Source of the DNA: Xanthomonas theicola | GTDB taxonomy: Bacteria; Pseudomonadota; Gammaproteobacteria; Xanthomonadales; Xanthomonadaceae | Direction: 5' to 3' | Length of the DNA stretch: 64,000 nucleotides | Assembly: GCF_014236795.1 (NCBI RefSeq) | Contig: NZ_CP049017.1 | Location: 2,210,001 to 2,274,000, forward strand | Shown: positions 8,730 to 62,979 of the stretch, in pieces | How the letters are laid out: each line of letters opens with the position of its first letter | Numbering within the stretch: position 1 is the first letter of the stretch | The notes under the pieces: generated by a model | Database searches by the model: none | Seen by the model: only the letters and a program-made list of their open reading frames with translations | Told to the model about the DNA's origin: nothing | Position numbers and translations under genes: made by a program

Positions 8730-8858
8730 GCGACCCGGGACCCGGAAAAGGCGCATCGCCGGTAACAAAACCTGCGCGCGCGACGGCAACGTTCTGCTGA
8801 AGCCTGGTGTGCCTTCGACTCTGCCGTTCCGGGTCCAGGGTCCAGGGTCCCGAGTCCC
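8730..8858. repeat. Heptad paired-arm element, copy 1
   Basis: The left arm (8730-8743) is GCGACCC-GGGACCC. The right arm (8831-8858) is four 7-base units, GGGTCCA twice, then GGGTCCC and GAGTCCC. The arms are partly complementary and enclose an 87-base centre. The copy fills the gap between two convergent genes almost exactly, from the corA stop to the dehydrogenase stop. Confidence 0.75.
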
Positions 8859-8862
8859 GGCC

Positions 8863-10227
8863 TCACCCCACATACACCGACTTGATGTTCATGAACTCAT
8901 GAATCCCATGCTCGGCCAGTTCGCGGCCGAAGCCTGAGCGCTTGATGCCGCCGAACGGCAGGCGCACGTCGCTCTTGACGATGGCGTTGACGAAGGCCGC
9001 GCCGCACTGCAGCTGGCGGGCGACGCGCTCGCCGCGGGCGCGGTCGGCGCTCCACACGCTGCCGCCCAGGCCGAAGCTGGTGTCGTTGGCCACGCGGACC
9101 GCCTCCGCCTCGTCGGCCACGCGCAGGATCGCGGCGACCGGGCCGAACAGTTCCTCGTCGTAGGCCGGCATGCCCGGCACCACCTTGTCCAGGATCGAGG
9201 CCGGATAGCCGGCATGGGTCTCGGTGTCGGGTGCGCCGCCGAGCAAGGCCACCGCGCCCTTGGCGAGGCTGGCCTGCACCTGCTTGTGCAGTTCGTCGCG
9301 CAGGTCCTGCCGCGCCAGCGGCGCCAGCGTGGTCGCTTCGTCCTGCGGATCGCCGAGCCGGCGCTCGGCCGCGGCGGCGACGAATCGGCGCACGAAGTCG
9401 TCGGCGATCGCCTCCACCACCACGAAGCGCTTGGCCGCGATGCAGGTCTGCCCGGCGTTGTCGAAGCGCGACTTCACCGCCGCGGCCACGGTCAGCTCCA
9501 GGTCGGCGTCGTCCAGCACCACGAAGGCGTCGCTGCCGCCCAGCTCCATCACGCACTTCTTCAGCTGACCGCCGGCGTTGGCGGCGATCGAGCGGCCGGC
9601 GCGCTCGCTGCCGGTCAGGGTCACCGCGGCGATACGCGCATCGCGCAGCACCTCGGCGGCCTGGTCGTTGTCGATGTGCAGCACGTCGAACACGCCGGTA
9701 GGTACGCCGGCGGCGGCGAGCGCGGCGTGGATCGCGTCGGCGCAGCGCGGCACGTTGCTGGCGTGCTTGAGCAGGGTCACGTTGCCGGCCATCAGCGCCG
9801 GCGCCAGGAACCGGAACACCTGCCAGATCGGGAAGTTCCACGGCATCACCGCCAGCACGCAGCCCAGCGGCTCGTAGCGCACGTAGCTGCGCTGCGCGTC
9901 GGTGGCGATCGGCAGTTCGCGCAGGTAGTCGGCGGCGTGTTCGGCGTAGTAGTCGCAGGCATCGGCGCACTTGTCGATCTCGGCCAGCGCCTCCTTGCGC
10001 AGCTTGCCCATCTCCGCGGTCATCACCCGCTGGATGTCCCCGCGGCGCGCGCGCAACTGCGCGCCGACCTGGCGCAGCAACGCGCCGCGCTGCTCCAGCG
10101 GCGTCGCCGCCCAGGCGGGAAACGCCTGCGCGGACGCGGCCAGGCGCTGCTCGACGACGGCGGCATCCATCAGTGCGAGACGGTATTCGACCTGGCCGGT
10201 GGCGGGATTGACGGTGTCGTAAGGCAT
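8863..10227 (-). CDS. NAD(P)-dependent succinate-semialdehyde dehydrogenase
   Basis: This is a 454-residue aldehyde dehydrogenase. The catalytic cysteine is in NAGQTCIAAKRF (Cys262) and the general-base glutamate in VMELGGSDAF (Glu228). The early MPWNFPIWQVFR block is typical of the succinate-semialdehyde dehydrogenase branch (Sad/GabD-like). The enzyme oxidises succinate semialdehyde to succinate. With the polyamine transporter and the SpuC-like aminotransferase in the same region, a role as the last step of putrescine or GABA breakdown is the natural inference. It starts at ATG 10227 with about 155 bases to the potI stop, so it could be the last gene of the polyamine operon. Exact substrate and NAD versus NADP preference cannot be read. 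Confidence 0.88.
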   Translation of the reverse strand: MPYDTVNPATGQVEYRLALMDAAVVEQRLAASAQAFPAWAATPLEQRGALLRQVGAQLRARRGDIQRVMTAEMGKLRKEALAEIDKCADACDYYAEHAADYLRELPIATDAQRSYVRYEPLGCVLAVMPWNFPIWQVFRFLAPALMAGNVTLLKHASNVPRCADAIHAALAAAGVPTGVFDVLHIDNDQAAEVLRDARIAAVTLTGSERAGRSIAANAGGQLKKCVMELGGSDAFVVLDDADLELTVAAAVKSRFDNAGQTCIAAKRFVVVEAIADDFVRRFVAAAAERRLGDPQDEATTLAPLARQDLRDELHKQVQASLAKGAVALLGGAPDTETHAGYPASILDKVVPGMPAYDEELFGPVAAILRVADEAEAVRVANDTSFGLGGSVWSADRARGERVARQLQCGAAFVNAIVKSDVRLPFGGIKRSGFGRELAEHGIHEFMNIKSVYVG

Positions 10228-10383
10228 CGCGGCGGATTCCTGGAAAAAGTCCGCTCAGCCTAGCGCCGCGAAGGTTGCGGCGGCGTCGGGACGCGGCGGT
10301 CGCGATGGACCGCAGCATTCTGCGGAGCGACTTGTTGTGGCAGCGACTCCGGGTGGCCTCAAAATACCTGAGGCGAAGAGCCG

Positions 10384-11238
10384 TCAGCCACCCTGCTGCA
10401 GCGCCAACTGGATATCGCGCTGGCGCCGCTTCTCGCTGCGCGCCATCAGCCACCAGCCGACGAAGGCGGCGATCGACACCGCCAGCACCATCAGCGTGGC
10501 CAGCGCGTTGATCTTCGGCTTCAAGCCCATCCGCACCGAGGAGAACACGGTCATCGGCAGCGTGGTCGAATCGGGCCCGGCCACGAAGTTGGCGATCACC
10601 ACGTCGTCCAGCGACAGGGTGAAGGCCAGCAGCCAGCCGGACACCAGCGCCGGGACGATGATCGGCAAGGTGATCAGGAAGAACACCTTGAGCCGGTTCG
10701 CGCCCAGGTCCATCGCCGCCTCCTCCAGCGAGCGGTCCAGCTCCTGCAGGCGCGAGGACACCACCACGGTGACGAAGGACAGGGTGAAGGTGACGTGCGC
10801 GGCCCAGATCGCGGCGACGCCCTTGGGCGGGATGCCGATCAGCCCGCCCATCGACACCAGCATCATCATGATCGACAGGCCGATGATCACCTCCGGCATC
10901 ACCAGCGGCGCGGTCACCAGCGCGCCGAACAGGTTCTTGCTGGGGAAGCGGCGCAAGCGGGTCATCACCAGCGCGGCCAGCGTGCCGATCACCATCGACG
11001 CGGTGGCGGTCCAGAACGCCACCTTCAGGCTGATCCAGGCCGCCTGCAGGATCTGCCGGTCGCGCAGCAGTTCGCCGTACCACTTGGTCGAGAACCCGGC
11101 CCACACCGTGGCCAGCTTCGACGCATTGAACGAATACACCATCAGCAGCAGGATCGGCAGGTACAGGAAGGCGAAGCCGCCGCCCAGCACCGTCCAGCGC
11201 AGCACCCGCCCGCCGCGCAGCGCGCCCGCGCCGCTCAC
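10384..11238 (-). CDS. potI: Polyamine ABC transporter permease PotI
   Basis: The product is a 284-residue inner-membrane permease with six predicted helices. The EAA loop that contacts the ATPase is visible as EEAAMDLGANRLKVFFLITLP (about 165-185). Together with PotF, PotG and PotH it imports putrescine or related polyamines. The GTG at 11238 is chosen because it overlaps the potH stop (GTGA), is followed by VSGAGALRGG and gives the usual family length. Confidence 0.92.
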   Translation of the reverse strand: MSGAGALRGGRVLRWTVLGGGFAFLYLPILLLMVYSFNASKLATVWAGFSTKWYGELLRDRQILQAAWISLKVAFWTATASMVIGTLAALVMTRLRRFPSKNLFGALVTAPLVMPEVIIGLSIMMMLVSMGGLIGIPPKGVAAIWAAHVTFTLSFVTVVVSSRLQELDRSLEEAAMDLGANRLKVFFLITLPIIVPALVSGWLLAFTLSLDDVVIANFVAGPDSTTLPMTVFSSVRMGLKPKINALATLMVLAVSIAAFVGWWLMARSEKRRQRDIQLALQQGG

Positions 11239-12197
11239 GCCCGGCCGCCTTCCAGCTGGCGCTGTTGGTAGCGGTTGAAGAACAGGATCGGCAGCATCAG
11301 CAGCGCCAGCATCGCGATCGCCACCGCCGAGGCCGCCGGCCAGTCGCGGTTGTTGAAGAACTCGCCCCACAGCACCCGGCCGATCATCAGCGTGTCCGGC
11401 CCGCCGAGCATTTCCGGGATCACGAACTCGCCCACCGCCGGGATCATCACCAGCATGCAGCCGGCGACGATGCCCGGGCGCGACATCGGCAAGGTGATGG
11501 TCGCGAACGCCTTCCACGGCCGCGCGCCGAGGTCGTAGGCGGCCTCGAGCAGGCGGTGGTCCTTGACCAGGGTCGCGTACAGCGGCAGCACCATGAACGG
11601 CAGGTAGCAGTAGACGATGCCGATGTAGGCGGCGATGGGCGTGTACAGGATGCGCAGCGGCTGCTCGATCAGGCCCAGCGCCAGCAGCGCGCGGTTGAGC
11701 ACGCCGTTGCTGTCGAGGATGCCGATCCAGGCGTAGACGCGGATCAGGAACGAGGTCCACGACGGCAGCACCACCAGCATCATCGCGATGTTGCGCGCCG
11801 ACGGCGACAGCCGCGCGATCACGTAGGCCATCGGATAGCCGATCAGCAGGGTCAGCAGGGTGGAGATCCCGGCGATCTTGATCGAACCCCAGTAGGCCTC
11901 GATGTACTGGTTGTCGCGCACCAGCGCCAGGTAGTTCTGCAGGGTGAACGTCAGCGTCAGCACGCCGTCCCGGTAGTTCACCAGCGCGCTGTACGGCGGG
12001 CTGCTGATCGCCTGCTCGGCGAAGGAGATGCGCAGCACGATCAGGAACGGGATCGCGAAGAACAGCAGCAGCCACAGGTACGGCGCGGCGATCACCGCCC
12101 AGCGCGCGCCGGGCAGGCGCCGCAGGCGCTGCAGCAGCGTGCGCCGCGGCGGCAGCGCCTGCGCGGCGGGCACGCTGGCAGCGTTGGGCGCGCTCAT
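11235..12197 (-). CDS. potH: Polyamine ABC transporter permease PotH
   Basis: A 320-residue inner-membrane permease with a long cytoplasmic N-terminus rich in Arg and Pro, then six hydrophobic segments. The EAA-type loop reads LLEAAYDLGARPWKAFATIT (about 200-220). It is the partner of PotI. The ATG at 12197 overlaps the potG stop (ATGA), which settles the start against a longer open frame. Confidence 0.92.
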   Translation of the reverse strand: MSAPNAASVPAAQALPPRRTLLQRLRRLPGARWAVIAAPYLWLLLFFAIPFLIVLRISFAEQAISSPPYSALVNYRDGVLTLTFTLQNYLALVRDNQYIEAYWGSIKIAGISTLLTLLIGYPMAYVIARLSPSARNIAMMLVVLPSWTSFLIRVYAWIGILDSNGVLNRALLALGLIEQPLRILYTPIAAYIGIVYCYLPFMVLPLYATLVKDHRLLEAAYDLGARPWKAFATITLPMSRPGIVAGCMLVMIPAVGEFVIPEMLGGPDTLMIGRVLWGEFFNNRDWPAASAVAIAMLALLMLPILFFNRYQQRQLEGGRA

Positions 12198-13354
12198 GCG
12201 GTCAGCACCACGCCGTCGTTCTCGCCCCACCACACCCACACCGCGTCGCCCCAGGTCAGGTTGTCGCTGGCCCAGCGCTGCTGGTTGGCGAAGTTGGCCA
12301 TCAGCTTGAAGCCGCTGGGCAGGCGCACGTGGTAGACCGAATGGCTGCCGAAGTAGGCGATGTCCTCGATCGTGCCCTGCGCCTTGTTGTGCGCCTGCGC
12401 CGGCGCGTCCTTGCCGATGCCGAGCTTCTCCGGGCGCAACGCGAACGACACCGGCTGCCCGGTGATGCCGGTGATGCCGTGGCCGACGTAGATGCTGTCG
12501 GCGAAGGCGCCGGCGCGCAGGGTCACGTAGTCCGGCAGATCCTCGTCGATGACCGCATCGATCAGGTTGACCGAGCCGATGAACTCGGCGGCGAAACGGT
12601 TGGCCGGCTGCTCGTAGATCTCGTCCGGGGTGCCGACCTGCTGGATCCGGCCGCCATCCATCAGCGCGATGCGGGTGGCCATGGTCATCGCCTCCTCCTG
12701 GTCGTGGGTGACCATCACGCAGGTCACCCCCGAGGTCTCGATGATGTTGACCAGCTCCAGCTGCATCTGCGAACGCAGCTTCTTGTCCAGCGCGCCCATC
12801 GGCTCGTCCAGCAACAACAGCTTCGGCCCCTTGGCCAGCGAACGCGCCAGCGCCACGCGCTGCTGCTGGCCGCCGGAGAGCTGGTGCGGCTTGCGCTTGC
12901 CGAGCCTGCCCAGTTGCACCAGCGCCAGCATCTCGCCCACGCGCGTGGCGATGGCCGCGCGCGACAGGCCGTCCTGCTTCAGCCCGAAGGCGATGTTCTG
13001 CTCCACCGACATGTGCGGGAACAGCGCGTAGGACTGGAACATCATGTTGAGCGGGCGCTCGTACGGCGGCAGGCCGTCCAGCGGCTGGCCGTCGAGCACG
13101 ATGCGGCCGCGGCTGGATTGCTCGAACCCGCCCAGGCAGCGCAGCAGCGTGGACTTGCCGCTGCCCGAGCCGCCGAGCAGCGCGAAGATCTCGCCCTTGC
13201 GGATGTCCAGGTCGACGTCGTCGAGTGCGACGAAACCGTCGAACTCCTTGCGCAGGCCGGCGATGGACAAGTAGCCGCTGCCCTTGGCCGGCGCCGCGGC
13301 CGCGGCCGCGATCGCCATCGGCGGAAGATCGGGTCTGGCTTCGCTCAACGCCAT
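12194..13354 (-). CDS. potG: Polyamine ABC transporter ATP-binding protein PotG
   Basis: A 386-residue ABC ATPase: Walker A GGSGSGKST (about residue 60), signature LSGGQQQRVALARSL, Walker B LLLLDEPMGALD, H-loop VTHDQEEAMTMA, and a C-terminal TOBE domain (NKAQGTIEDIAYFGSHSVYH). It energises uptake through PotH and PotI. The ATG at 13354 has a GGGGAG ribosome-binding site about 7 bases upstream; a second ATG 12 codons in is possible. The three genes potG-potH-potI overlap by 4 bases each. The binding-protein gene potF is not adjacent: a three-gene efflux operon lies between. Confidence 0.94.
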   Translation of the reverse strand: MALSEARPDLPPMAIAAAAAAPAKGSGYLSIAGLRKEFDGFVALDDVDLDIRKGEIFALLGGSGSGKSTLLRCLGGFEQSSRGRIVLDGQPLDGLPPYERPLNMMFQSYALFPHMSVEQNIAFGLKQDGLSRAAIATRVGEMLALVQLGRLGKRKPHQLSGGQQQRVALARSLAKGPKLLLLDEPMGALDKKLRSQMQLELVNIIETSGVTCVMVTHDQEEAMTMATRIALMDGGRIQQVGTPDEIYEQPANRFAAEFIGSVNLIDAVIDEDLPDYVTLRAGAFADSIYVGHGITGITGQPVSFALRPEKLGIGKDAPAQAHNKAQGTIEDIAYFGSHSVYHVRLPSGFKLMANFANQQRWASDNLTWGDAVWVWWGENDGVVLTA

Positions 13355-13469
13355 CTGGTGCTCCCCGTGGAAGACGCCGTCGCGCAGGTTCGCCGATGCT
13401 GACGGGACGTGCGCGGCCGACCCCAGTGTAGCCGCGGCCGCCGGATCGGCGATACCGCGGCGCGGGCGT

Positions 13470-14954
13470 TCATCGCGGCGGCGTTTGCGGCGGCGCCCAG
13501 CCCAGGCCCAGGCTCTTCTGCAGCGCCACGTAACGCAGCAGCACCTGGGTCCGCGCCTGCACCGCGCTGTCCTGCGCCGAGGCCTGCTGGCGCTGCACGT
13601 CCAGCGCATCGATCAGCGACGCCGCGCCGGCCGCGTAGCGCTGCTGCAGCAACGCCACGGACCGGTCCGCCGAGGTTTCGGCCTTGGCCGCGGCCAGCGC
13701 CTGCTGGCGGGCCGCGCCGAACCGCGCCAGCGCGTTGTTGGCGTCCTGCAGCGCCGCCAGCACGGTGCCTTCGTAGGCGGCCAGGCGCGTCTGGTTGCCG
13801 GCGCGGGCCTGCGCGACCTTGGCCCGGGTCGCGCCGAAATCGAAGATCGACCAGCGCAGGAACGGCGCCACCACGCTGTTGATCGCATCGCGGCCGAGGG
13901 CGCCCGGCGAGGTCGCGGCCATGCCGATGTTGCCGAGCAAGGCGACCTGCGGGAAATACGCGCTCAGCGCCTGCCCGATCTGCGCCGACGAGGACGCCAG
14001 CTGGCGCTCGGCGCGGCGCACGTCGGGGCGGCGGCGGATCAGCGCCCCCGCATCGTCCACCGGCACCACCGCCGGCAGCGTCGGCAGCGGCCGGTCCGCG
14101 GCCAGCGCGGCGTCGAGCGCGCCCGGCTCGCGGCCGATCATCAGCGCCAGCTGGTCCAGCGCCTCCTTCGCCTGCGCCTGCAGGTCCGGCAACACCGCCT
14201 CCTGCTGCTGCAGCTGCGCCTGGGCGCGCTCCACCTGCAGGTCGGCATCGGCGCCGCGCTCGCGGCGCTGCCGGGTCAATTGCAGGGTCTGCCGCGCCGC
14301 CTCCAGGTTGCGCTGGGCGATGACGATGCGCGCGCGGGTAGCGCGATAGCCCAGGTAGGCCTGACCCACTTCGGCGGCGAGCTGGACCTGAGTATCGGCC
14401 AGTTCAGCCTCGTCGGCCTGCGCATCGGCCAGCGCGCCTTCGCTGGCGCGGCGGCGGCGGCCGAAGAAATCCAGCTCCCAGCTGGCATCGAAGCCGACGC
14501 TGTACAGCTGCGCATGCGGGTCGATGGACAACGGCTGGCCGCTGCCGGCGGCGACGCTGCCCAGGCCGTCGACCAGCGCATCCGGCGCCCTGGCGTTGAG
14601 ATAGGCGGCATTGGCGCCGACGCTGGGCAGCTGCTCGGCATGGCGCTGCTGCACCAGCGCGCGCGAGGCGCGCAGCCTGGCCTGTGCCGCGCGCAGGTTC
14701 GGGCTGTTCTGCAGCGCCTGTTCGACCAACGTGTTCAACTGCGGGTCCTGCAACGCCTCCCACCAGCGCTGCGGCGGCGCGGCCGGCACCACCCCGGCCG
14801 CCGCGGCGACCGCGTCGGCGCGATGCAGCTGCGGCTGCGCCTGCGCCGCCTCGGCCACCGGCGGCGGCTTCACGTAGTTCGGGCCGAGCACGCAGGCCGA
14901 CAGCAGCAGCGGCAGCGCGACGGGGACGAGCACACGGGAAAAGCGCTGGGCCAT
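13470..14954 (-). CDS. NodT-family efflux outer-membrane lipoprotein
   Basis: A 494-residue TolC/OprM-like outer membrane factor. The N-terminus is a lipoprotein signal (LPLLLSACVLGPNYVKP) with the lipid-attachment Cys at about residue 21. Two repeats of the outer-membrane efflux domain follow, with long alanine- and glutamine-rich helices that build the periplasmic tunnel. The gene sits at the end of an operon emrA-emrB-outer membrane factor, so it most likely completes a three-part MFS drug exporter. The start is 8 bases from the emrB stop. Confidence 0.92.
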   Translation of the reverse strand: MAQRFSRVLVPVALPLLLSACVLGPNYVKPPPVAEAAQAQPQLHRADAVAAAAGVVPAAPPQRWWEALQDPQLNTLVEQALQNSPNLRAAQARLRASRALVQQRHAEQLPSVGANAAYLNARAPDALVDGLGSVAAGSGQPLSIDPHAQLYSVGFDASWELDFFGRRRRASEGALADAQADEAELADTQVQLAAEVGQAYLGYRATRARIVIAQRNLEAARQTLQLTRQRRERGADADLQVERAQAQLQQQEAVLPDLQAQAKEALDQLALMIGREPGALDAALAADRPLPTLPAVVPVDDAGALIRRRPDVRRAERQLASSSAQIGQALSAYFPQVALLGNIGMAATSPGALGRDAINSVVAPFLRWSIFDFGATRAKVAQARAGNQTRLAAYEGTVLAALQDANNALARFGAARQQALAAAKAETSADRSVALLQQRYAAGAASLIDALDVQRQQASAQDSAVQARTQVLLRYVALQKSLGLGWAPPQTPPR

Positions 14955-14961
14955 GGAATCC

Positions 14962-16545
14962 TCAATGCATCGCGAGCGGAGCGCCGCCCTTGGGCAGCGG
15001 TTTGAGCAGGAACGCCAACGGGATCGTGCACACCACGATCATCCCGAAGACCCAGAACAAGTCGTTGTAGGTCATCACCAGCGCCTGCTGCTGCACCATC
15101 CGCGCCAGCTGCGCCACCGACTGCAGCGCCGCGCCGGCGCCGGTCGCCGACTGCAGTTGCGCGGCCAGGCCGTGCAGGTAGTCTTGCGCCAGCGCCGAAT
15201 TGGCGCTGGTGCCGCTGCCGATCATCTGCGTGTGGAACACCATGCGCCGCTCCTGGAAGGTGGAGATCAGCGCCAGCCCGATCGAGCCGCCCATGTTGCG
15301 CGCGGCGTTGAACAGCCCGGACGCGTCGCCGGCCAGATCCGGCGGCACCGAGGAGATCGCCGCCTGGTTCAGCGACATCATCGCCAGCGCCAGGCCACAG
15401 CCCTGCAGCAACTGGCCGATGACGAAATGCATGCCGACCGAATCGGCGCTGAGGTCCATGTTGACGAAGCAGGCGACGGCGAAACAGCTGAGCCCGACGA
15501 TCACCAGGATGCGCACGTCCACGCTCGCCAGCAGCTTCGGCATCAGCGGCATCAGCAGCACCGTCGGCACGCCGGCCAGCAGCACCACGTAGCCGGACTG
15601 CTCGGTGTTGTAGCCGGCGATGGTGGCCAGGAACTGCGGGATCATGTACATGACCCCGAACAGGATCATGCCCACCGCCATCACCATCACGAACACCGCG
15701 CCGAAACTGCGCCGCAGCAGGATCGACAGGCGGATCACCGGTTGCCGGCTGACGAACTGCGAGGCGACCAGGGCGACGAAGCCCAGCGCCGAGAGCAGGC
15801 TCAGCAGCACGATCTCCGAGGACTCGAACCAGCGCTCGCGCTGTCCTTCCTCCAGCACCACGGTCAGCGCGCCGAGCCCGGCGGCCAGGCCGAAGATGCC
15901 GAGCCAGTCGGCGTCGAGCAGCCCGCGCAGGTTCATCCGCTCGTGCGGCAGGCCGAGCAGCAGCAGCGCCACCAGCCCGGCGCAGATCGGCACGTTGATG
16001 AAGAACGCGTAGTGCCAGCTGACGTTCTCGGTGAGCCAGCCGCCGAGCAGCGGCCCGATCACCGGCCCCAGGATCACGGTCATGCCGAACAGCGCGGTGC
16101 CCATGGTCTGCTGCGCCGGCGGCAGCCGCGTGGCGACGATGGTCAGCGCGGTGGGAATCAGCGCGCCGCCGGCGAAACCCTGGCCGACGCGGCCGAGGAT
16201 CATCATGGGCAGGCTGTTGGACAGCCCGCACACCACCGAAAAGAAGGTGAACAGCAGCGCGCAGATCAGCAGGAAATTGCGCAGCCCCAGGGTGCGCACG
16301 AACCAACCGGTCAGCGGGATCATCACGATCTCGGCCACCAGGTAGGCGGTGGATATCCAGGTGCCCTCGGTGCCGCTGGCGCCGACCTCGCCCTGGATCG
16401 TCGGCAAGGCCGCGTTGACGATGGAGATGTCCAGCGTCGCCATGAACGAGCCGATGGTGCCGGCGGCGACCGCCAGCCACGCGCCGGCGTCGGCCTTGCG
16501 CTGTGCGCCGGCGCCCGCCGCCGGGGCAGCGGCGGCCTCGCTCAC
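14962..16545 (-). CDS. emrB: EmrB/QacA family drug:H+ antiporter (DHA2 MFS)
   Basis: A 527-residue major facilitator of the 14-helix DHA2 family. The first helix carries the family motif FMATLDISIVNAALPTI. Motif A follows (GWFVRTLGLRNF), and motif C is in GMTVILGPVIGPLLGGWLTE. It exports hydrophobic compounds by proton antiport together with the membrane-fusion protein encoded just upstream. The GTG at 16545 overlaps the emrA stop (GTGA) and matches the family length. Substrates cannot be inferred. Confidence 0.92.
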   Translation of the reverse strand: MSEAAAAPAAGAGAQRKADAGAWLAVAAGTIGSFMATLDISIVNAALPTIQGEVGASGTEGTWISTAYLVAEIVMIPLTGWFVRTLGLRNFLLICALLFTFFSVVCGLSNSLPMMILGRVGQGFAGGALIPTALTIVATRLPPAQQTMGTALFGMTVILGPVIGPLLGGWLTENVSWHYAFFINVPICAGLVALLLLGLPHERMNLRGLLDADWLGIFGLAAGLGALTVVLEEGQRERWFESSEIVLLSLLSALGFVALVASQFVSRQPVIRLSILLRRSFGAVFVMVMAVGMILFGVMYMIPQFLATIAGYNTEQSGYVVLLAGVPTVLLMPLMPKLLASVDVRILVIVGLSCFAVACFVNMDLSADSVGMHFVIGQLLQGCGLALAMMSLNQAAISSVPPDLAGDASGLFNAARNMGGSIGLALISTFQERRMVFHTQMIGSGTSANSALAQDYLHGLAAQLQSATGAGAALQSVAQLARMVQQQALVMTYNDLFWVFGMIVVCTIPLAFLLKPLPKGGAPLAMH

Positions 16546-17774: not shown

Positions 17775-18304
17775 CGTCGCCTGTGCGCCTGACGGTGCAG
17801 GGACAGGAACGCGCTGCCTGGCGCGCATTCACCAGACGGAAGCGTACGGCGACTCTATAAGTATTTGTACTGGCGGGTCCAGATTATGCGAGCGCGGCGT
17901 GCCGGAACGTTCAGGCGCCTGCGCGGCGGCGCGTCGCAGGCGGCGCCCCTCTCTTCCGCCTTCACGGCGGCCGCCGACGGCGTGCGCCACGGCGCATCAG
18001 GCGCCGCGTGCGGTCCAAGCCTCCCGCGCCGCCGTATCCTTCCCCCCTCTCTCCGCGGGCAGAGGAAATCAGCTGCTGCACGCCGCTCAGCGCCCGCTCT
18101 TCAGTACGGCCCACAACCGCGTGTACTGGCGGTCCACCTGCGGCGGCATCACCGCCAGCGCGCACAACCTGACTTGCACCTGCCGACGCCGGGCCAGGCG
18201 CGCGCGCCGGTGGTCCTCCCCCTTGGCGACCGCGCGCGGCGCGGTCGTACTGCGTGCAGGCGCCGCGCCGCCGCGCCGCACAATGGACCACGGACGCGAC
18301 CGGC
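17775..18304. other. Gene-free region between emrA and potF, with a potF tail fragment
   Basis: About 530 bases lie between the two divergently evolved blocks. It should contain the emrA promoter in its first 100 bases: a local AT-rich patch near 17855-17870 (CTATAAGTATTTG on the plus strand) is the only such stretch. A degenerate potF C-terminus lies at 18087-18155. Nothing else coding is supported. The base run near 18035-18065 is pyrimidine-rich on the plus strand. Confidence 0.5.
18087..18155 (-). pseudogene. C-terminal remnant of a second polyamine-binding protein gene (potF paralogue)
   Basis: The minus strand reads VMPPQVDRQYTRLWAVLKSGR followed by a stop at 18087. The intact potF next door ends INPPEVDKLYTRLWTEIKTGR and stops. 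14 of 21 positions agree, so this is the tail of a paralogue and not chance. Upstream of the remnant the frame shows no further similarity to the binding protein. The tail is 150 bases past the end of the intact potF. It points to a former tandem pair of binding-protein genes, one of which has been almost fully deleted next to the emr operon. Confidence 0.75.
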
Positions 18305-19429: not shown

Positions 19430-19515
19430 TGCAGGTCTCCGCAGGTCCATGGGGAAGATCGGAAGATACACGCCGCGGCATCGCGCGGCCGACTCGAGAC
19501 GACCCATTCAGACTA

Positions 19516-20328: not shown

Positions 20329-20343
20329 CTAACCAGCGCCGGC

Positions 20344-21814: not shown

Positions 21815-21829
21815 CTGTTGCAATTGCTT

Positions 21830-32252: not shown

Positions 32253-32387
32253 GGGACTCGGGACCTGGGACTCGAAAAGCCTAAGAGCTATAAAGCGAAA
32301 AAGCGGCCGGGAAGGCCGCTTTTTCGCTTCTCTCAAGTCTAGAACCGCTCGTTGCAGCTCAGCGTTATGACTCAGGTCCCGAGTCCC
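32253..32387. repeat. Heptad paired-arm element, copy 2
   Basis: The left arm is GGGACTC-GGGACCT-GGGACTC (32253-32273). The right arm is AGGTCCC-GAGTCCC (32374-32387). The centre contains a strong bidirectional terminator. The copy lies between the convergent stops of acrB and the acyl-CoA dehydrogenase gene. Confidence 0.85.
32293..32329. terminator. Bidirectional intrinsic terminator after acrB
   Basis: A perfect 16-bp stem, AAGCGAAAAAGCGGCC (32293-32308) against GGCCGCTTTTTCGCTT (32314-32329), has a 5-base loop GGGAA. The A-run on one side and T-run on the other allow it to work in both directions, which suits the convergent genes acrB and acyl-CoA dehydrogenase. Confidence 0.92.
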
Positions 32388-33668: not shown

Positions 33669-34667
33669 ATGGATCTGGAAGACTGGTCGACCCGGCTCAA
33701 GGTGTTCGCCGATGCGACCCGCGTGCGCCTGCTGGCGCTGCTGGAGCAGGAAGAGCTGACCGTGGCCGAGCTGTCGGCGATCACCCGGCTGGCGCAACCG
33801 CGCGTCTCCACCCACCTGGCCAAGCTGAAGGAGGCCGGGCTGGTGCGCGACCGCCGCGCCGGCGTGTCGGCCTACTACCGCTTCGACGAGGCGCAGCTGG
33901 ACCCGGCGCAGCGCGCGTTGTGGCTGGCGCTGAGCACCGGCAGCGACGACCCGCTGCTGCGCCAGGACGCCGAGCGCGTGGCCGCGGTGCTGGCCAACCG
34001 CGCCGCCGACCAGAACTGGGCCGACTCGGTGGCCGGCGACATGGAGCGCCACTACTCGCCCGGGCGCACCTGGGAAGCGCTGGCGCGCACCGCGCTGCCG
34101 CTGCTGGAGACCGGCGACGTGCTCGACATCGCCTCCGGCGACGGCGTGCTGGCCGAACTGGTCGCCCCGCATGCGCGCCGCTACGTGTGCATCGACACCA
34201 GCGCGCGGGTGGTGGCCGCGGCCAGCGAGCGCCTGCGCCGGCTGGGCAACGTGGAAGTGCGCGAGGGCGACATGCACGCGCTGCCGTTCGCCGCGGCCAG
34301 CTTCGACCTGGTGGTGATGATGCATGCGCTGACCTACGCGGCCAAGCCGGCGCAGGCGGTGGCCGAATCGGCGCGAGTGCTGCGCCCCGGCGGGCGCCTG
34401 CTGCTGTGCAGCCTCGCCCGCCATGAACACAAGGCCGCGGTGCACGCCTACGGCCACGTCAACCTGGGCTTCGCGTCCAAGGAACTGCGCAAGTTCGTGC
34501 ACAAGGCCGGGCTGGAGGTGTCCAGCCTGGAGACCGTGACCCGCGAGAAGCGCCCGCCGCATTTCGAGGTGGTGTCGTTGATCGCGGCCAAGCCGGAGGC
34601 GTCGGGACGCGGGACGCGGGACCCGGGACCCGGAAACGCCAGAGCCGAAGCGGGAGCAAGGCCATGA
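33669..34667 (+). CDS. ArsR-family regulator fused to a SAM-dependent methyltransferase
   Basis: A 332-residue two-domain protein. Residues about 1-95 form an ArsR winged helix ([15 protein letters not shown], then [21 protein letters not shown]). Residues about 145-260 form a class I methyltransferase with motif [15 protein letters not shown] and motif II around [13 protein letters not shown]. Genes of this type stand upstream of split metH in xanthomonads and are thought to sense S-adenosyl-metabolites. The last about 22 residues ([12 protein letters not shown] and on) are encoded by the left arm of a heptad repeat element and do not belong to the family. The stop overlaps the metH1 start (ATGA at 34664). 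A strong palindrome sits at the start codon. Confidence 0.9.
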
Positions 34668-34713
34668 GTACATCCGCTCTCGACCGAGTCCCCAGTCCCG
34701 AGTCCCGAGTCCC
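34604..34713. repeat. Heptad paired-arm element, copy 3 (spans a gene junction)
   Basis: The left arm (34604-34631) is GGGACGC twice and GGGACCC twice. The right arm (34686-34713) is GAGTCCC, CAGTCCC, then GAGTCCC twice. The centre holds the stop of the arsR-methyltransferase gene and the ATG of metH1. Both arms are translated. Confidence 0.88.
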
Positions 34714-35812
34714 GGGCCCACCCTGGCTGCACCCCCAGCGCACGCAGCAACTCCTGCAGGCCTTGACCGAGCGCATCCTGATCATCGATGGCGCGATGGG
34801 CACCATGATCCAGCGCCACGATCTGCAGGAGGCCGACTACCGCGGCGAGCGCTTCGCCGCCGGCTACGACGGCGCGCAGGCCGGGCACGTGCACGGCCCG
34901 GGCTGCGACCACGCGCCGCAGGGCCACGACCTGAAGGGCAACAACGACCTGCTGCTGCTGTCGCGGCCGGAAGTGATCGCCGGCATCCACCGCGCCTACC
35001 TCGATGCCGGCGCCGACCTGCTCGAGACCAACACCTTCAACGCCACCTCGATCAGCCAGGCCGACTACCACCTGGAGCACCTGGTCTACGAGCTCAACAA
35101 AGCCGGCGCACGCGTGGCGCGCGATTGCTGCGATGCGGTCGAGACGCTCACCCCGGACAAGCCGCGCTTCGTCATCGGCGTGCTCGGCCCGACCAGCCGC
35201 ACCGCCTCGATCAGCCCCGACGTCAACGATCCCGGCTTCCGCAACACCAGCTTCGACGAACTGCGCGGCACCTACCGCGAAGCGGTCGAGGGCCTGATCG
35301 ATGGCGGCGCCGACACGCTGATGGTGGAGACCATCTTCGACACGCTCAACGCCAAGGCGGCGCTGTACGCGATCGAGGAAGTGTTCGACGCGCGCGGCGG
35401 GCGGCTGCCGGTGATGATCTCCGGCACCATCACCGACGCTTCCGGGCGCACCCTGTCCGGACAGACCGCCGAAGCGTTCTACGCCTCGGTGGCGCACGGC
35501 CGGCCGCTGTCGGTGGGGCTGAACTGCGCGCTCGGCGCCAACGACCTGCGCCCGCACGTGGAGACGCTGGCGCGGATCGCCGACGGCTACGTCAGCGCGC
35601 ATCCCAATGCCGGCCTGCCCAACGCCTTCGGCGAGTACGACGAAACCCCCGAGGAAATGGCGGCGACGCTGAAGGAATTCGCCGAATCCGGACTGCTGAA
35701 CCTGGTCGGCGGCTGTTGCGGCACCACCCCGGCGCACATCCAGGCGATCGCCGAGGCGGTGCGCGGGCTGCGTCCGCGCACGCCGCTGGCAGCGCAGGCA
35801 CAGGCGGCCTGA
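34664..35812 (+). CDS. metH1: Methionine synthase, homocysteine-binding half (split MetH)
   Basis: This 382-residue protein corresponds to the N-terminal homocysteine S-methyltransferase domain of B12-dependent MetH. The barrel starts [16 protein letters not shown], and the zinc-binding cysteines lie in VGLNCALG (about residue 287) and GGCCGTTP (about 348). It activates homocysteine through zinc for methylation. The rest of the enzyme is on the next gene, so the two proteins must associate. The N-terminal about 20 residues ([11 protein letters not shown]) come from the right arm of a heptad repeat element and are not part of the family. The ATG at 34664 overlaps the upstream stop; the next in-frame start lies well within the domain. 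Confidence 0.93.
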
Positions 35813-35922: not shown

Positions 35923-38700
<2,778 letters not shown>

Positions 38701-53062: not shown

Positions 53063-54758
<1,696 letters not shown>

Positions 54759-54859
54759 GCCATGCTTGATCTGTGCCGATGCCCGGCAGCGCCCCCTGCG
54801 CGGACGATGCTCCCCCAACCCCACTCCTGCAAGCGCGGCCTGCGGTGCCGCTTCGCACA

Positions 54860-56116
54860 ATGATCGACAAGACCCCTCGCTCCCGCGCCGCCGCGCCGCC
54901 CTTCGAGATCACCGCTACGCGCCGGCATCTGCTGGGCATGCCGGCCGCCATTTTCCTGCGCGACTACTGGCACAAGCGGCCGCTGCTGATCCGCGGCGCC
55001 TTCCCCGGCTTCGTCTCGCCGATCGAACCGGGCGACCTGGCCGGACTGGCCTGCGAGGAGGCCGCGCTGTCGCGGCTGATCGTGCACGACCGCGCCGGCG
55101 ACCGCTGGAGCGTGCGCAGCGGGCCGTTCGAGGAAAGCGAATTCCCCGGCATGCCCGACCACGACTGGACCCTGCTGGTGCAGGACGTGGACAAGTGGGA
55201 TCCGGACATCCGCACCCTGCTCGAACAGTTCCGCTTCCTGCCGCGCTGGCGGGTCGACGACGTGATGGTCAGCTTCGCCGCGCCCGGCGGCTCGGTCGGC
55301 GCGCACGTGGACCACTACGACGTGTTCCTGCTGCAGGCGCACGGCCACCGCCGCTGGCAGATCGACGCTAGTGTGGCGCTGGAGCGCGAGGCGCCATCGA
55401 CCGACTTCCGCGACGACGTCGAGCTGAAGCTGCTGCGCCGCTTCACCCCGACCCACGACTGGGTCCTCGGCCCGGGCGACATGCTGTACCTGCCGCCGCT
55501 GGTGCCGCACCACGGCATCGCCGAGGACGCCTGCCTGACCTTCTCGGTGGGCACGCGCGCGCCGTCCTCGGCCGAGCTGATCGGCGACTATCTGGACAGC
55601 TTGATCGACGGCGCCGACCAGGCGCTGCGCTACCACGACGAGGACCTGCAGGTCCCGGCCGATCCGTACGAGATCGACGCGGCGGCGATGGGCCGCGTGG
55701 TCGAGGCGCTGAACGCGCTGCGCATGAACGACCCCGACCGCCTCGGCGCCTGGTTCGGCCGCTTCATCACCACTTATCGCGCCGCCGGCGAGATCCTGCC
55801 GCCGGCCGACCCGCCGGCCGCCGCGGACGTGGCCGCGGCGCTCGAGCAGGGCCTGGTGCTGCAACGCCATCCCTGGGCGCGGCCGGCCTGGCGCCAAGCC
55901 ACGCGCGGCGCCACCCTGTTCTGCAGCGGCCTGGAGTTCGCCCTGCCACGCAAGGACGCGCGACGCCTGGCCGCGGCCGACAGCATCGACGGCAGGGGCT
56001 ACGCGGCGCTGTCGGCGGCCGGCCGCGAGACCTTGCTGCAACTGGTCGAGGCCGGTTTCTACCAGCCGCTGGACGCCGCCGACGACCGCGACGAGGATGC
56101 CGACGCACAGGATTGA
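54860..56116 (+). CDS. roxA: JmjC-type ribosomal oxygenase (YcfD/RoxA-like)
   Basis: A 418-residue Fe(II)/2-oxoglutarate oxygenase of the type that hydroxylates an arginine of ribosomal protein L16. The DSBH core has the iron-binding HVDHYDVF (His and Asp, about residue 152) and the distal His in PPLVPHHGIAED (about 218). ADVMVSFAAPGGSVGAH precedes it. The C-terminal half is the winged-helix dimer part. The ATG at 54860 gives the family start; a longer frame reaches back to 54773. It is the first gene after purB, 100 bases away. Confidence 0.9.
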   Translation: MIDKTPRSRAAAPPFEITATRRHLLGMPAAIFLRDYWHKRPLLIRGAFPGFVSPIEPGDLAGLACEEAALSRLIVHDRAGDRWSVRSGPFEESEFPGMPDHDWTLLVQDVDKWDPDIRTLLEQFRFLPRWRVDDVMVSFAAPGGSVGAHVDHYDVFLLQAHGHRRWQIDASVALEREAPSTDFRDDVELKLLRRFTPTHDWVLGPGDMLYLPPLVPHHGIAEDACLTFSVGTRAPSSAELIGDYLDSLIDGADQALRYHDEDLQVPADPYEIDAAAMGRVVEALNALRMNDPDRLGAWFGRFITTYRAAGEILPPADPPAAADVAAALEQGLVLQRHPWARPAWRQATRGATLFCSGLEFALPRKDARRLAAADSIDGRGYAALSAAGRETLLQLVEAGFYQPLDAADDRDEDADAQD

Positions 56117-56126
56117 GCCGCCCGCC

Positions 56127-57020
56127 ATGCAGGCCCCCGGTTTCCACATCGAACCGCTCGACCCGGCCCGCCAGGCGGCCCAGTTGCGGGCGCTGCGCGA
56201 GCGGGCCGGCATGCCGGCGCCGCAAGCGCCTGCCGAGGCCGCATTGGATGCGCTGAGCTACCACGTGCTGGCGCTTGCCGAGGACGGCCAGCCGCTCGGC
56301 AGCGCGCGGTTGAGCCCCGCGCAGCGGATCGGCTGCATGGCGGTGCTGCCGGCCTGGCGCGGCCGCGGTGTCGGCAGCGCGCTGCTGGCCGCGCTGCTGG
56401 AAGAGGCACGGCGCCGGCGTTGGCTGCGGCTGGGCCTGGATGCGCCGCCGGCCGCGCTCGATTTCTACGCGCGGCACGGCTTCCTGCCGGTCGGCGCGCG
56501 CGTCGCCGACGGCGCTCCGCAACCGATGCAGCGCCTGCTCGGCGCCGCCGCGGCAGTGGAGGATGCGGCGGCGGCGATCGCCGCCGGTGCCGTGGTGGTG
56601 TCGCAGGCGCGGCGCGAATTGCTGATCTACAGCCGCGCGCTGGATCCGGGCCTACTGGACCGTGCGCCGCTGCTCGCGCAGTTGCGCCGCTTCGCGGTGG
56701 CCGCGCACGACAAGCAGCTGCGCGTGCTGCTGCATGACGCGGCCGCCCCGCAGCGCGCCGCTGCGCCGCTGCTGGGGCTGGCGCAGCGCCTGCCCAGCGT
56801 GGTCCGGTTCCGGCAGGTGGTCGATCCGGTCGACCAGGGCTATGCCGCCGCCTATCTGGTCAACGACGCCGGCGGCTACTATTTCCGTGCGCTGGGTCAC
56901 CGTTACGACGGCGAGACCGACTTGCTCGGCGGCGGCCGCGCGCGCCAGCTGCGCGACGCGTTCGCGCGGGTCTGGGAGCGCTCGCGCGACTGCACCGAGC
57001 TGCGCGCACTGGGCCGGTGA
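56127..57020 (+). CDS. GNAT acetyltransferase with C-terminal DUF7931-like domain
   Basis: A 297-residue two-part protein. The N-terminal half (about 1-140) is a GNAT fold with the acetyl-CoA loop RIGCMAVLPAWRGRGVGSAL and the FYARHGFLPVG end motif. The second half (about 150-297) has RELLIYSRALDPGLLDR, a LRVLLHDAAAPQRA stretch and YFRALGHRYDGETDLL, resembling phospholipase D-like helper domains found behind GNATs in xanthomonads. Substrate unknown. It starts 11 bases after the oxygenase stop. Confidence 0.82.
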   Translation: MQAPGFHIEPLDPARQAAQLRALRERAGMPAPQAPAEAALDALSYHVLALAEDGQPLGSARLSPAQRIGCMAVLPAWRGRGVGSALLAALLEEARRRRWLRLGLDAPPAALDFYARHGFLPVGARVADGAPQPMQRLLGAAAAVEDAAAAIAAGAVVVSQARRELLIYSRALDPGLLDRAPLLAQLRRFAVAAHDKQLRVLLHDAAAPQRAAAPLLGLAQRLPSVVRFRQVVDPVDQGYAAAYLVNDAGGYYFRALGHRYDGETDLLGGGRARQLRDAFARVWERSRDCTELRALGR

Positions 57021-57107
57021 CGCCGCGCGGCGGGCGGCGGCGCAGCGAATGAACCCGTCGTAGCCCCCTGCGTATCCGAAATGCACACCCCGGCTGGCGC
57101 ATGGGGG

Positions 57108-57113
57108 TATAAT
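57108..57113 (+). promoter_or_regulatory. Consensus -10 box upstream of sucA
   Basis: TATAAT at 57108-57113 is a perfect -10 hexamer in an otherwise GC-rich stretch, about 87 bases before the sucA GTG, followed by a TTTTTT run. No strong -35 is seen 16-18 bases upstream, which would fit an activator-dependent promoter of a TCA operon. Confidence 0.6.
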
Positions 57114-57199
57114 TTTTTCGCTTGATTACGCCCGCGCAGGCCACGCGCCCACCGGTTCCCACCGCAAGCCAACCCACAAAGCGACCCGACCCCACCATC

Positions 57200-60025
<2,826 letters not shown>

Positions 60026-60071
60026 ACATCCTTCACATTCCAAAAAGACACCACTTAGGACGCCCCCTACA

Positions 60072-61271
<1,200 letters not shown>

Positions 61272-61281
61272 TCCGGCGCCG

Positions 61282-61383
61282 GGACGCGGGACTCGGGACC
61301 CGCGCCCGGCAATGCAGATCAAGCAGGACTCGGGACATGCAGGCGATGGCTTTGCGAGTCCCGAGTCCCGAGTCCCGAGTCCC
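61282..61383. repeat. Heptad paired-arm element, copy 5 (between sucB and lpd)
   Basis: The left arm is GGGACGC-GGGACTC-GGGACCC (61282-61302). The right arm is four perfect GAGTCCC units (61356-61383). The centre of 53 bases holds an extra GGACTCGGGAC. It occupies most of the sucB-lpd gap within one operon. Confidence 0.92.
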
Positions 61384-61407
61384 GCAAAAGCACAGGACTC
61401 CCGCAAC

Positions 61408-62847
61408 ATGTCAGAACAACATTTCGACGTCGTCGTCATCGGCGCCGGCCCGGCCGGCTACCACGCCGCCATCCGCGCGGCCCAGCTGGGCATGAAGGTC
61501 GCCTGCGTCGATGCGGCGCTGGGCAAGGACGGCAAGCCGGCCCTGGGCGGCACTTGCCTGCGCGTGGGCTGCATCCCGTCCAAGGCGCTGCTGGATTCCT
61601 CGCGCCAGTTCTGGAACATGGGCCACCTGTTCGGCGAGCACGGCATCACCTTCAAGGACGCCAAGATCGACGTCGCGGCGATGGTCGGGCGCAAGGACAA
61701 GATCGTCAAGCAGTTCACCGGCGGCATCGCGATGCTGTTCAAGGCGAACAAGATCGCCGCGTACTACGGCTTCGCGCAGCTGCAGCCGGGCAACGTGGTC
61801 AAGGTCGCCCAGCACGAAGGCGGCGAGATCGAGCTCAAGGGCCGCAACGTGATCCTGGCCGCCGGCTCGGATTCGATCGAGCTGCCGTTCGCCAAGTTCG
61901 ATGGCCAGACCATCGTCGACAACGTCGGCGGGCTGGACTTCACCGAAGTGCCCAAGCGCCTGGCGGTGATCGGCGCCGGTGTCATCGGCCTGGAACTGGG
62001 CAGCGTGTGGAAGCGCCTCGGCGCCGAGGTCACCATCCTCGAGGCGCTGCCGGACTTCCTGGCCCTGGCCGACGCCGAAGTGGCCAAGACCGCCGCCAAG
62101 GAATTCAAGAAGCAGGGCCTGGACATCCGGCTGGGCGCCAAGGTCTCCAGGACCGAGGTCACCGGCAAGGGCAAGAAGCAGGAAGTGGTGGTCAGCTACG
62201 CCGACGCGTCCGGCGAGCAGTCGCTGACCGTGGACAAGCTGCTGGTGGCCGTGGGCCGCAAGGCCGCGACCGGTAACCTGCTGGCCGAGGGCACCGGCGT
62301 CAGGCTCACCGAGCGCGGCCAGATCGAGGTCGACGCGCACTGCCACACCGGCGTCGACGGCGTCTGGGCGATCGGCGACTGCGTACGCGGGCCGATGCTG
62401 GCGCACAAGGGCTTCGAGGAAGGCATCGCGGTCGCCGAGCTGATCGCCGGCCTGCCGGGCCACGTCAACTTCGACACCATCCCGTGGGTGATCTACACCG
62501 AGCCGGAGATCGCCTGGGTCGGCAAGACCGAGCAGCAGCTCAAGGCCGAGGGCGTCGCCTACAAGGCGGGTTCGTTCCCGTTCGCGGCGATCGGCCGTGC
62601 GGTGGCGATGGGCGAGCCGGCCGGCTTCGTCAAGGTCATCGCCGATGCCGAGACCGACCGCGTGCTCGGCCTGCATCTGGTCGGCGTCGGCGTCTCCGAG
62701 CTGGTCCACGAAGGTGTGCTGGCGATGGAGTTCAACGGCTCGGCCGACGACCTGGCGCGCATCTGCCACGCCCACCCGACCCTGTCCGAGGCGATCCACG
62801 ACGCCGCGATGGCGGTCGGCAAGCGCGCGATCCACAAAGCCAATTGA
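61408..62847 (+). CDS. lpd: Dihydrolipoamide dehydrogenase (E3)
   Basis: A 479-residue flavoprotein disulfide reductase. The FAD-binding start is VVVIGAGPAGYHAAI, the redox-active Cys pair is in GGTCLRVGCIPSK (Cys50 and Cys55), the NAD-binding motif is LAVIGAGVIGLELGSVW, and the catalytic His-Glu is in HAHPTLSEAIHD near the end. It reoxidises lipoamide for the 2-oxoglutarate and likely pyruvate complexes. The ATG at 61408 starts MSEQHFDVVVIG; the open frame continues upstream to 61312, but that part is only repeat-element sequence. Confidence 0.97.
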   Translation: MSEQHFDVVVIGAGPAGYHAAIRAAQLGMKVACVDAALGKDGKPALGGTCLRVGCIPSKALLDSSRQFWNMGHLFGEHGITFKDAKIDVAAMVGRKDKIVKQFTGGIAMLFKANKIAAYYGFAQLQPGNVVKVAQHEGGEIELKGRNVILAAGSDSIELPFAKFDGQTIVDNVGGLDFTEVPKRLAVIGAGVIGLELGSVWKRLGAEVTILEALPDFLALADAEVAKTAAKEFKKQGLDIRLGAKVSRTEVTGKGKKQEVVVSYADASGEQSLTVDKLLVAVGRKAATGNLLAEGTGVRLTERGQIEVDAHCHTGVDGVWAIGDCVRGPMLAHKGFEEGIAVAELIAGLPGHVNFDTIPWVIYTEPEIAWVGKTEQQLKAEGVAYKAGSFPFAAIGRAVAMGEPAGFVKVIADAETDRVLGLHLVGVGVSELVHEGVLAMEFNGSADDLARICHAHPTLSEAIHDAAMAVGKRAIHKAN

Positions 62848-62851
62848 AGCC

Positions 62852-62979
62852 GGGAATCGGGACCGAGGACCTGGGACTCGTGCAGCGCCCTGCCCACTGA
62901 CGAACGCCGGGCATCGCCCGGCGTTCTCTTTTCGAGACCCTGATCGCAGCCTGGTCCCTGGTCCCTGGTCCCGAGTCCC
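62852..62979. repeat. Heptad paired-arm element, copy 6 (after lpd)
   Basis: The left arm (62852-62879) is GGGAATC, GGGACCG, AGGACCT, GGGACTC. The right arm (62952-62979) is TGGTCCC three times and GAGTCCC. The 72-base centre contains a strong terminator. It fills the gap between lpd and the LOG-family gene. Confidence 0.85.
62902..62932 (+). terminator. Intrinsic terminator after lpd
   Basis: A perfect 11-bp stem GAACGCCGGGC (62902-62912) with GCCCGGCGTTC (62916-62926), a 3-base loop and a TCTTTT tail (62927-62932). It ends the sucA-sucB-lpd operon and stands in the loop of heptad element copy 6. Confidence 0.93.

Follow-up and report, generated by a model that had tools for sequence, protein, structure and literature searches.

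The 64,000-nucleotide stretch of Xanthomonas theicola DNA analysed here (the window) carries six elements of the same build, each consisting of two facing arrays of tandem seven-base units on either side of a centre (Table 1). All six loci proposed by a sequence-only reading were found again, far above chance expectation, and only the start of copy 5 had to be moved, from 61282 to one base before it. The contexts given there also hold: copies 1, 2, 5 and 6 are intergenic, copy 3 spans a gene junction and copy 4 lies inside a gene. Searching the window for GGGACNCGGGACNC with at most one mismatch gave 24 matches, compared with 1.00 ± 0.95 (maximum 4) in 100 dinucleotide shuffles, and no Rfam family matched the window at or above its gathering score. 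The left arm of copy 6 (GGGAATC GGGACCG AGGACCT GGGACTC) is the only one to contain a GGGAATC unit, which the arms of the other five copies lack. The centre of copy 2 contains a terminator-like hairpin that is kept in all five genomes compared.

Table 1. Paired-arm heptad elements of the window (positions counted from its first letter).
Element	Position	Strand	Arms	Context
Copy 1	8730-8858	.	left 8730-8743 (2 units), right 8831-8858 (4 units)	CorA-family gene and aldehyde-dehydrogenase gene, in the gap where they converge
Copy 2	32253-32387	.	left 32253-32273, right 32374-32387	convergent genes, AcrB family and acyl-CoA dehydrogenase
Copy 3	34604-34713	.	34604-34631 and 34686-34713	junction from ArsR/methyltransferase gene to first metH gene, spanning both sides
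Copy 4	37979-38080	.	37979-38006 and 38053-38080	within metH, in frame, Met_synt_B12 activation domain, about residue 686
Copy 5	61281-61383	.	61281-61301 and 61356-61383	sucB/lpdA gap, 3' of sucB
Copy 6	62852-62979	.	left 62852-62879, right 62952-62979	3' of lpdA; centre with terminator-like hairpin

The genome-wide search for the arms that had been suggested with the six loci revealed a family present throughout the genome: GGGACNC double units occur 360 times (196 + 164 exact matches), compared with 1 + 1 for a backward-pattern control, in a count that takes adjacent units singly and thus gives long arrays more weight. Within 464 kb including the window, 26 of 35 arrays of at least two units form 13 neighbouring pairs less than 400 nt apart. 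In 13 of 13 pairs the G-arm precedes the C-arm and no other order occurs, in agreement with the earlier view that the pair, not the single heptad, is the unit. Copy 6 is missing from these 13, as the scan needs more consecutive exact units than its left arm has. A motif-free detector, which only looks for two facing tandem arrays sharing one period, found 11 pairs of period 7 and none of periods 5, 6 and 8-12 in the same 464 kb at its strict setting; two looser settings gave 13 and 12 pairs of period 7, at most two of period 6 and at most one of period 12. Across five genomes (2.06 Mb), 67 facing pairs have period 7 versus 15 for seven other periods combined. Four units are the commonest array size above two (by exact pattern, four in 26 of 71 C-type and 50 of 115 T-type arms, two in 25 and 40), and nested and tandem elements were also seen (genome G002 at 152500; G014 at 124689-125150).

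The heptad itself varies by genome, from GGGACNC, GGGATTS, GGGAATS and GTGATTS even to GAGGAAC, and different species carry different types at the same place. Each genome has one dominant heptad, and several types may co-occur, as in G006 with 445 GGGACNC and 248 GGGATTS. The two arms of an element agree in type in all 67 pairs of the five genomes, and the inner bases are associated with the heptad type; among the heptad rows at metH, 3 of 21 have arms of differing majority type. Viral contigs contain 34 stretches with three consecutive GGGAYTC units. Ribbon-helix-helix proteins such as plasmid omega are known to bind heptads without spacers, and this resemblance, together with one heptad dominating each genome, could point to binding arrays for a DNA protein recognising the heptad; the co-existence of types in one genome speaks against this, and we regard it as very improbable. 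We are hardly more inclined to see the arms as G-quadruplex switches, in which the four GGG tracts of an arm would form a quadruplex and thereby regulate nearby genes (Rehm et al. 2015, PMC4692102). The preference for four units, the four GGG or CCC tracts in 6 of the 12 window arms and the in vitro CD evidence available in that paper are in line with such switches, but the four tracts are not present in every arm, and a quadruplex has no need of paired arms. Moreover, the GGG-free heptads GAGGAAC/GAGAAAC (249 doubled matches in one genome) and GTGATTS (134, 100, 90 and 47 in four genomes) face each other among the matches listed, and quadruplexes are therefore not the common feature.

With respect to genes, as called by a crude gene finder initially trained on five window genes, 42 of the 67 pairs lie between co-directional genes, 18 between convergent and 3 between divergent ones, and 4 are in metH. 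Divergent gaps are underrepresented (3 of 63 intergenic pairs, compared with 211 among the 931 gaps that measure 90 nt or more; p 1.3e-4). In 35 of the 42 co-directional elements, the start of the stop-side arm falls between -5 and +14 nt relative to the stop codon; 7 of the 42 run 35-70 nt into the predicted end of the gene.

All six copies fold stably as RNA (z -3.1 to -7.1). The folding check proposed earlier turned out in favour of arm-to-arm pairing for copies 1, 2, 3, 4 and 6; in copy 5, the lowest-energy fold pairs the arms elsewhere. The sucB-lpdA gap has z < -2 in 52 of 71 species, after 9 of 80 lpdA loci were dropped (6 with gaps below 30 nt, 3 without a recognised sucB stop), versus 5 of 70 sampled heptad-free co-directional gaps. 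Among heptad-bearing co-directional gaps, 36 of 67 reach z < -2. Selection at the RNA level was also sought as an excess of G-U over A-C mismatches on the sense strand of co-directional sites, where the ratio of 23:15 (38 informative mismatches) was not significant (p 0.26); convergent sites gave 3:9 on the plus strand, sites in genes 1:1 and divergent sites 2:2.

The elements hold their positions between two genomes that are 92.6% identical: of the heptad clusters whose flanks were both located, 20 of 20 in one direction of comparison and 21 of 22 in the other are present in both genomes. At ten sites aligned between G003 and G014 (from 15 G014 elements, leaving out 3 not alignable one-to-one and 2 switched sites), identity is 93% and 92% in the arms, 81% in the centre and 95% in the flanks, which bears out the earlier remark that the centres diverge. 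At one site (G014/G003 180747), arms and centre differ jointly. Such a joint change could reflect mobile elements (MITE- or REP-like, with a RAYT or another transposase acting in trans) that spread lineage-specific heptads, as could copy numbers in the hundreds, the empty metH linkers seen in other genera, the nested and tandem elements and the single dominant heptad of each genome. Matches to PF01797, a Y1-transposase search wider than RAYT, also track heptad abundance in the genus (17 of 19 relatives; G001 and G016 have no match and few heptads); in a second genus, G036 has no match and G047 and G056 have one. But none of 20 Y1-transposase neighbourhoods (about ±2 kb; 19 genomes) contains heptad arrays, and the repeats near all three of the genes examined are GTAG-type palindromes with a sequence unlike the heptads. 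Furthermore, heptads occur without a match (G046 and G032, the latter 82% complete) and matches without heptads (G021, G026, G028). RAYT, considered in the sequence-only reading, is not supported as the mover. An unsystematic look, with no clean recent insertion at hand, identified no target duplication. Given the stable positions, we consider mobile elements improbable; of the mobility suggested earlier, recent movement is not supported in view of the shared clusters, and gain over long times remains.

This gain is supported at metH, where 9 of 21 readable family-level loci have a short linker instead of the element. The remaining 9 of 30 loci have no anchor and are outside these counts; among them, L259 is heptad-like and L267 CCCTCTCCC-like. 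In other genera, unrelated palindromes occupy both the MetH linker and the sucB-lpdA gap, the metH families being assigned by reading the sequences, since the palindrome tags are fuzzy patterns that also match within heptads and, in one chance case, L263. The metH copy lies in a coding region, so a 3'-end role cannot apply there. The Rickettsia palindromic elements are likewise inserted in frame in protein genes; they have another sequence and are not known to carry heptad arms.

Starting from what is directly observed (architecture, placement, positional stability in two genomes, arm agreement and heptad differences at the same place), we tentatively propose, as the best but still uncertain reading, that the elements are old transcribed stem-loops at 3' ends or in intercistronic gaps, whose heptad drifts without the arms losing their match. 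The stem-loop would start near the stop codon, with a stem made of the two facing heptad arrays and a short inner stem of the AAAAGC/GCTTTT type, and the stem rather than its letters would be retained. Slippage may multiply a variant heptad inside one arm, and the variant could then reach the other arm by copying on the folded strand, known as quasipalindrome correction, by selection for pairing, or by both. As RNA, the stem would most likely protect or mark the 3' end of the upstream message and separate it from the next cistron, and in permissive slots it could be replaced by another palindrome family. We favour these stem-loops because of the excess of period-7 pairs, the scarcity of divergent elements and the starts at stop codons, because arms are concordant and more conserved than centres and the sucB-lpdA gap is structured, and because most X. 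citri repeats are transcribed according to the available text of Rehm et al. (PMC4692102). They are disfavoured by the missing G-U excess, the fold of copy 5, the coding position in metH, the overlaps with gene ends, the modest share of structured heptad-bearing gaps and the discordant metH rows. In addition, the dominant heptad of each genome and the type-linked inner bases need exchange between sites, for which stem-loops give no mechanism.

Alternatively, heptad slippage and arm-to-arm template switching might leave the elements as a neutral by-product in tolerated places, with no host function. The insignificant G-U excess and the use of the MetH linker by unrelated palindromes are compatible with such a by-product, and the placement could stem from avoiding promoters and coding sequence. 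Against it, the arms are nearly as conserved as the flanks while the centres drift, most species have a structured sucB-lpdA gap whichever palindrome it holds, and positions are stable; we judge it unlikely. A broader form of the stem-loop proposal, only slightly less doubtful, is that Xanthomonadaceae possess ancient slots after stop codons, and at least one in a protein linker, each retaining a hairpin whose sequence is interchangeable: arm-to-arm copying and selection on the transcript would rewrite the heptads of both arms in step by lineage, and the palindrome would sometimes be swapped for an unrelated family. If true, shape would be conserved across the genome although the letters are not. 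Elements at the same place with differing heptads in many sequenced species offer a natural experiment on how palindromes are kept matched, by template switching or by RNA selection, and the MetH linker offers a marker for palindrome turnover within a protein.

Several known repeats resemble these elements in part. Typing schemes for Xanthomonas employ seven-base VNTR loci (PMC8002079, PMC6459536, PMC6482255) with units such as GGGATTT/GGGATTC/GGGAATC and CCGATTC. Like the window elements these are mostly intergenic (PMC8002079, PMC6459536), but they serve as single tandem arrays, and "inverted" or "palindrom" do not appear in the main texts. The TAACTGA heptads of Beggiatoaceae are abundant and intergenic, but they are direct repeats of a different unit, as far as the available text goes (PMC4679880). 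REP/BIME sequences with their RAYT (Nunvar et al. 2010, PMC2817692) are also dispersed, mostly intergenic palindromes of the same bacteria. In the available description, they are single short hairpins with a GTAG/GTGG head and no heptad arrays, whereas the arms here are heptads; REPs adjoin the Y1-transposase gene in this genus and heptads do not.

Although the sequence-only reading knew no such form and held that a match to a known repeat family would count against it, the class is already known from two Xanthomonas genomes in which a different heptad dominates. For these, Rehm et al. (2015, PMC4692102) report GGGAATC repeats that form 70-75 facing pairs per genome, prefer four units and lie close to stop codons. 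Facing pairs, four-unit preference and a position near stop codons, rarely between divergent ORFs, are shared with our elements. The window arms are mostly GGGACNC, unlike the GGGNATC repeats of that study; judged by its definition, a tandem array of two or more units that includes GGGAATC, only the left arm of copy 6 offers the GGGAATC, and of the remaining units only GGGACTC fits the wider pattern GGGANTN of that study. Heptad turnover, GGG-free types and slots held by other palindromes are absent from the available text of that paper. In the open-licence literature searched, we found no report of two-arm heptad turnover with arm agreement, GGG-free facing pairs, positional stability with arms more conserved than centres, the MetH slot, or slots holding swapped, unrelated palindromes. 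The published interpretation as G-quadruplexes rests, in the available text, on four GGG tracts; the GGG-free heptads in facing pairs suggest instead that pairing and a seven-base period are what these repeats have in common.

Heptad arrays in facing pairs form a specific entity. The six paired-arm loci of the sequence-only reading are present in the window as it described them, with 24 motif matches against 1.00 expected (maximum 4 among 100 shuffles). We also applied a motif-free detector, which accepts any two facing tandem arrays with one common period. In the lpdA-region loci of 80 named relatives (1.55 Mb), period 7 gave 16 facing pairs out of 67 arrays, and periods 5, 6 and 8-12 gave none out of 336 arrays. 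Each of the 16 pairs borders lpdA on one side or the other, where window copies 5 and 6 are found. At a looser setting, five genomes from the genus (2.06 Mb) contain 67 period-7 pairs (13, 13, 15, 9 and 17) versus 15 facing pairs for the seven other periods combined. That genus is probably Xanthomonas, since lpdA matches named Xanthomonas at 91%.

Located features (G000, the window's own genome; G014 and G047, genomes of relatives; C1 and C4, contigs)
Feature	Sequence	Position	Observation
Copy 1	window	8730-8858	8723-8865 runs from stop codon to stop codon of two convergent genes; both stops belong to the palindrome (TGAGGCC..GGCCTCA)
Copy 2	window	32253-32387	
Copy 3	window	34604-34713	
Copy 4	window	37979-38080	inside metH
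Copy 5	window	61281-61383	sucB-lpdA gap
Copy 6	window	62852-62979	after lpdA
Split methionine synthase, first gene	window	34664-35812	homocysteine domain
Split methionine synthase, second gene	window	35923-38700	pterin, B12 and activation domains
One-sided array	G000	C1:2111690	25 heptads; weak facing arm at 169 nt distance
One-sided array	G000	C1:2438088	13 heptads
Y1-transposase match (example)	G000	C1:371308-371664	PF01797
Switched site	G014	180747	centre differs along with the arms (T to A type)
Switched site	G014	396824	C-type pair; lone T-type array in G003
Three tandem elements	G014	124689-125150	no one-to-one alignment in G003
Blockwise switch within arrays (example)	G047	C4:161782-161900	GGGACTC to GGGATTC or GGGAATC units

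In the five genomes, arms most commonly have 2 or 4 exact units, with a maximum of 25. The inner arm ends prolong the stem: G[CT]AA(A)AGCGG comes next in many T-type arms (GGGATTS), and C-type arms (GGGACNS) continue as GG(A)AA. With continuing arrays excluded, the next two letters vary with arm type (C-type, GG 31 and G[CT] 5; T-type, GG 6 and G[CT] 89). The centre is variable, in agreement with the earlier remark that centres mostly differ. Copies 2 and 6 carry a terminator-like hairpin within it; at the copy 2 site the hairpin occurs in 5/5 genomes with arms of either type, and at the copy 6 site a similar one also occurs in some arm-less species (e.g. loci L038 and L057). When folded, all six copies beat shuffles (z -3.1 to -7.1); the two arms of copy 5 are unpaired with each other in its best predicted fold.

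The 67 pairs are distributed over co-directional gaps (42), convergent gaps (18), genes (4, all at the metH site) and divergent gaps (3), compared with a divergent share of 211/931 among gaps of at least 90 nt (p 1.3e-4). In 35 of the 42 co-directional pairs the stop-side arm starts at -5 to +14 nt relative to the stop codon; the remaining seven overlap a predicted gene end by 35-70 nt.

These positions are stable. Between the relatives G003 and G014 (92.6% identity, 328 kb aligned), 20/20 heptad clusters are shared in one direction and 21/22 in the other, the sites being largely double-counted and one further cluster per direction lacking flanks. Comparison against G002 gave 16/17 and 18/19, with four flankless each. 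Over ten G003/G014 sites, excluding the two switched ones, identity is 93% and 92% in the arms, 81% in the centre and 95% in the flanks.

The heptad itself turns over. Doubled units, counted genome-wide over both strands (GGGACNC, GGGATTS, GGGAATS, GTGATTS), number 360, 43, 18 and 0 in the window's own genome, 646, 52, 11 and 1 in G008, 78, 516, 40 and 0 in G002, and 2, 150, 394 and 0 in G005. Among 60 relatives, the four patterns are matched at least once in 32, 34, 33 and 14, many at background level. Four further named species have 134, 100, 90 and 47 GTGATTS doubles; the P. composti genome has no GTGATTS double and 249 GAGDAAC doubles, many facing each other among the 100 matches listed. 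Both of these heptads are without a GGG tract. A backward control pattern gave 124 + 144 matches in G057, from another family, which may therefore carry a seven-base repeat of its own (CNCAGGG).

Where an orthologous site could be typed in both genomes (the pattern applied was strict and leaves units like GGGACGC unrecognised), the type differs between the window's genome and G002 at 5/5 sites, G014 at 4/4, G017 at 0/3 and G006 at 1/3; the values are 2/14 for G002 and G014, 7/12 for G002 and G006, and 6/13 for G006 and G014. The majority type is nevertheless equal in both arms of 67/67 pairs (one right arm is common to three G002 rows). Non-seed orthologous gaps (n=66) have both arms in 40 cases, one in 17 and none in 9.

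The metH gene is present in 20/20 genomes of the genus and the heptad element lies at the same place in 18, the exceptions being G001 (short linker) and G016 (non-heptad insert). Its arms are C-type in G000, G006, G008, G017 and G019 and T, A or mixed in the other 13. Mean arm self-match is 0.81 versus 0.68 between different types over 22 rows, the former lowered by inclusion of the G016 row. Three of 21 heptad rows (L136, L142 and L143) have arms of different majority type and may be intermediates. A nine-base right junction, mostly CGGCAYCTC, is similar in C- and T-type elements, missing from A-type ones and absent from short linkers. Since C- and T-type elements share it and short linkers lack it, the sequences favour a change in place over fresh insertion for these two types. 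Immediately left of the element, a small hairpin is present in L135, L142, L256 and L257; its two sides, GTGGTCC..GGACCAC or GTGATCC..GGATCAC, show matched changes in some species.

Family-wide, metH was matched in 78/79 genomes, and 21 of 30 linker loci were readable: six have a heptad insert (three of the window's own genus, window included), two a CCCTCTCCC-type palindrome, one a CCTCCCCTT-type palindrome, one a GTAG-REP-like palindrome, two other inserts and nine short linkers. This one linker has been entered by unrelated palindromes.

The sucB-lpdA gap likewise holds, depending on the species, heptad arms of differing types or other palindromes; among 71 species, a heptad pair was detected in 13, a CCCTCTCCC-type tag in 17 and neither of them in 41. 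Its predicted RNA fold has z < -2 in 52/71 species, versus 5/70 sampled heptad-free co-directional gaps (p 1e-16, too small since the species are related), 9/70 sampled divergent gaps and 36/67 heptad-bearing co-directional gaps. Structure in this gap often outlasts its letters. In other species these slots, upstream of lpdA (L036, L039, L040, L052, L057) and in metH (L262, L263), are taken by a second family of palindromes (GCCCCTCTCCC..GGGAGAGGGGTTGGGGTGAGGG with CACCTTCTCCC).

Stable positions, anchoring at stop codons, conserved stems and freely varying letters fit stem-loops with arms that would be kept matched, a reading that we propose tentatively, at slightly less than an even chance. 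Matching could come from pairing selection or from arm-to-arm copying; to tell these two apart, sense-strand G-U mismatches were compared with A-C ones, and the 23 versus 15 obtained is not a significant excess. A neutral version of such matched-arm stem-loops seems unlikely. One dominant heptad per genome and type-linked inner bases would need some exchange among sites or subfamily spread. The evidence for turnover of the heptad, for types lacking GGG and for palindromes that replace one another speaks against quadruplexes as the common feature and against recent mobility through RAYT; the sequence-only reading had inferred mobility. The window's genome has 31 Y1-transposase matches, 21 of them near-identical and full-length with one in-frame TAG each.

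The tandem 7-bp arms, first taken for an unfamiliar form, belong to a class already in print: Rehm et al. (2015; PMC4692102) give 186 GGGAATC-containing arrays for X. campestris pv. campestris ATCC 33913 and 183 for an X. axonopodis pathovar. The repeat class is therefore known, and the window elements are Xanthomonas heptameric inverted repeats of a GGGACNC variant. VNTR typing papers (PMC8002079, PMC6459536, PMC6482255) work with the same seven-base units, there as single arrays.
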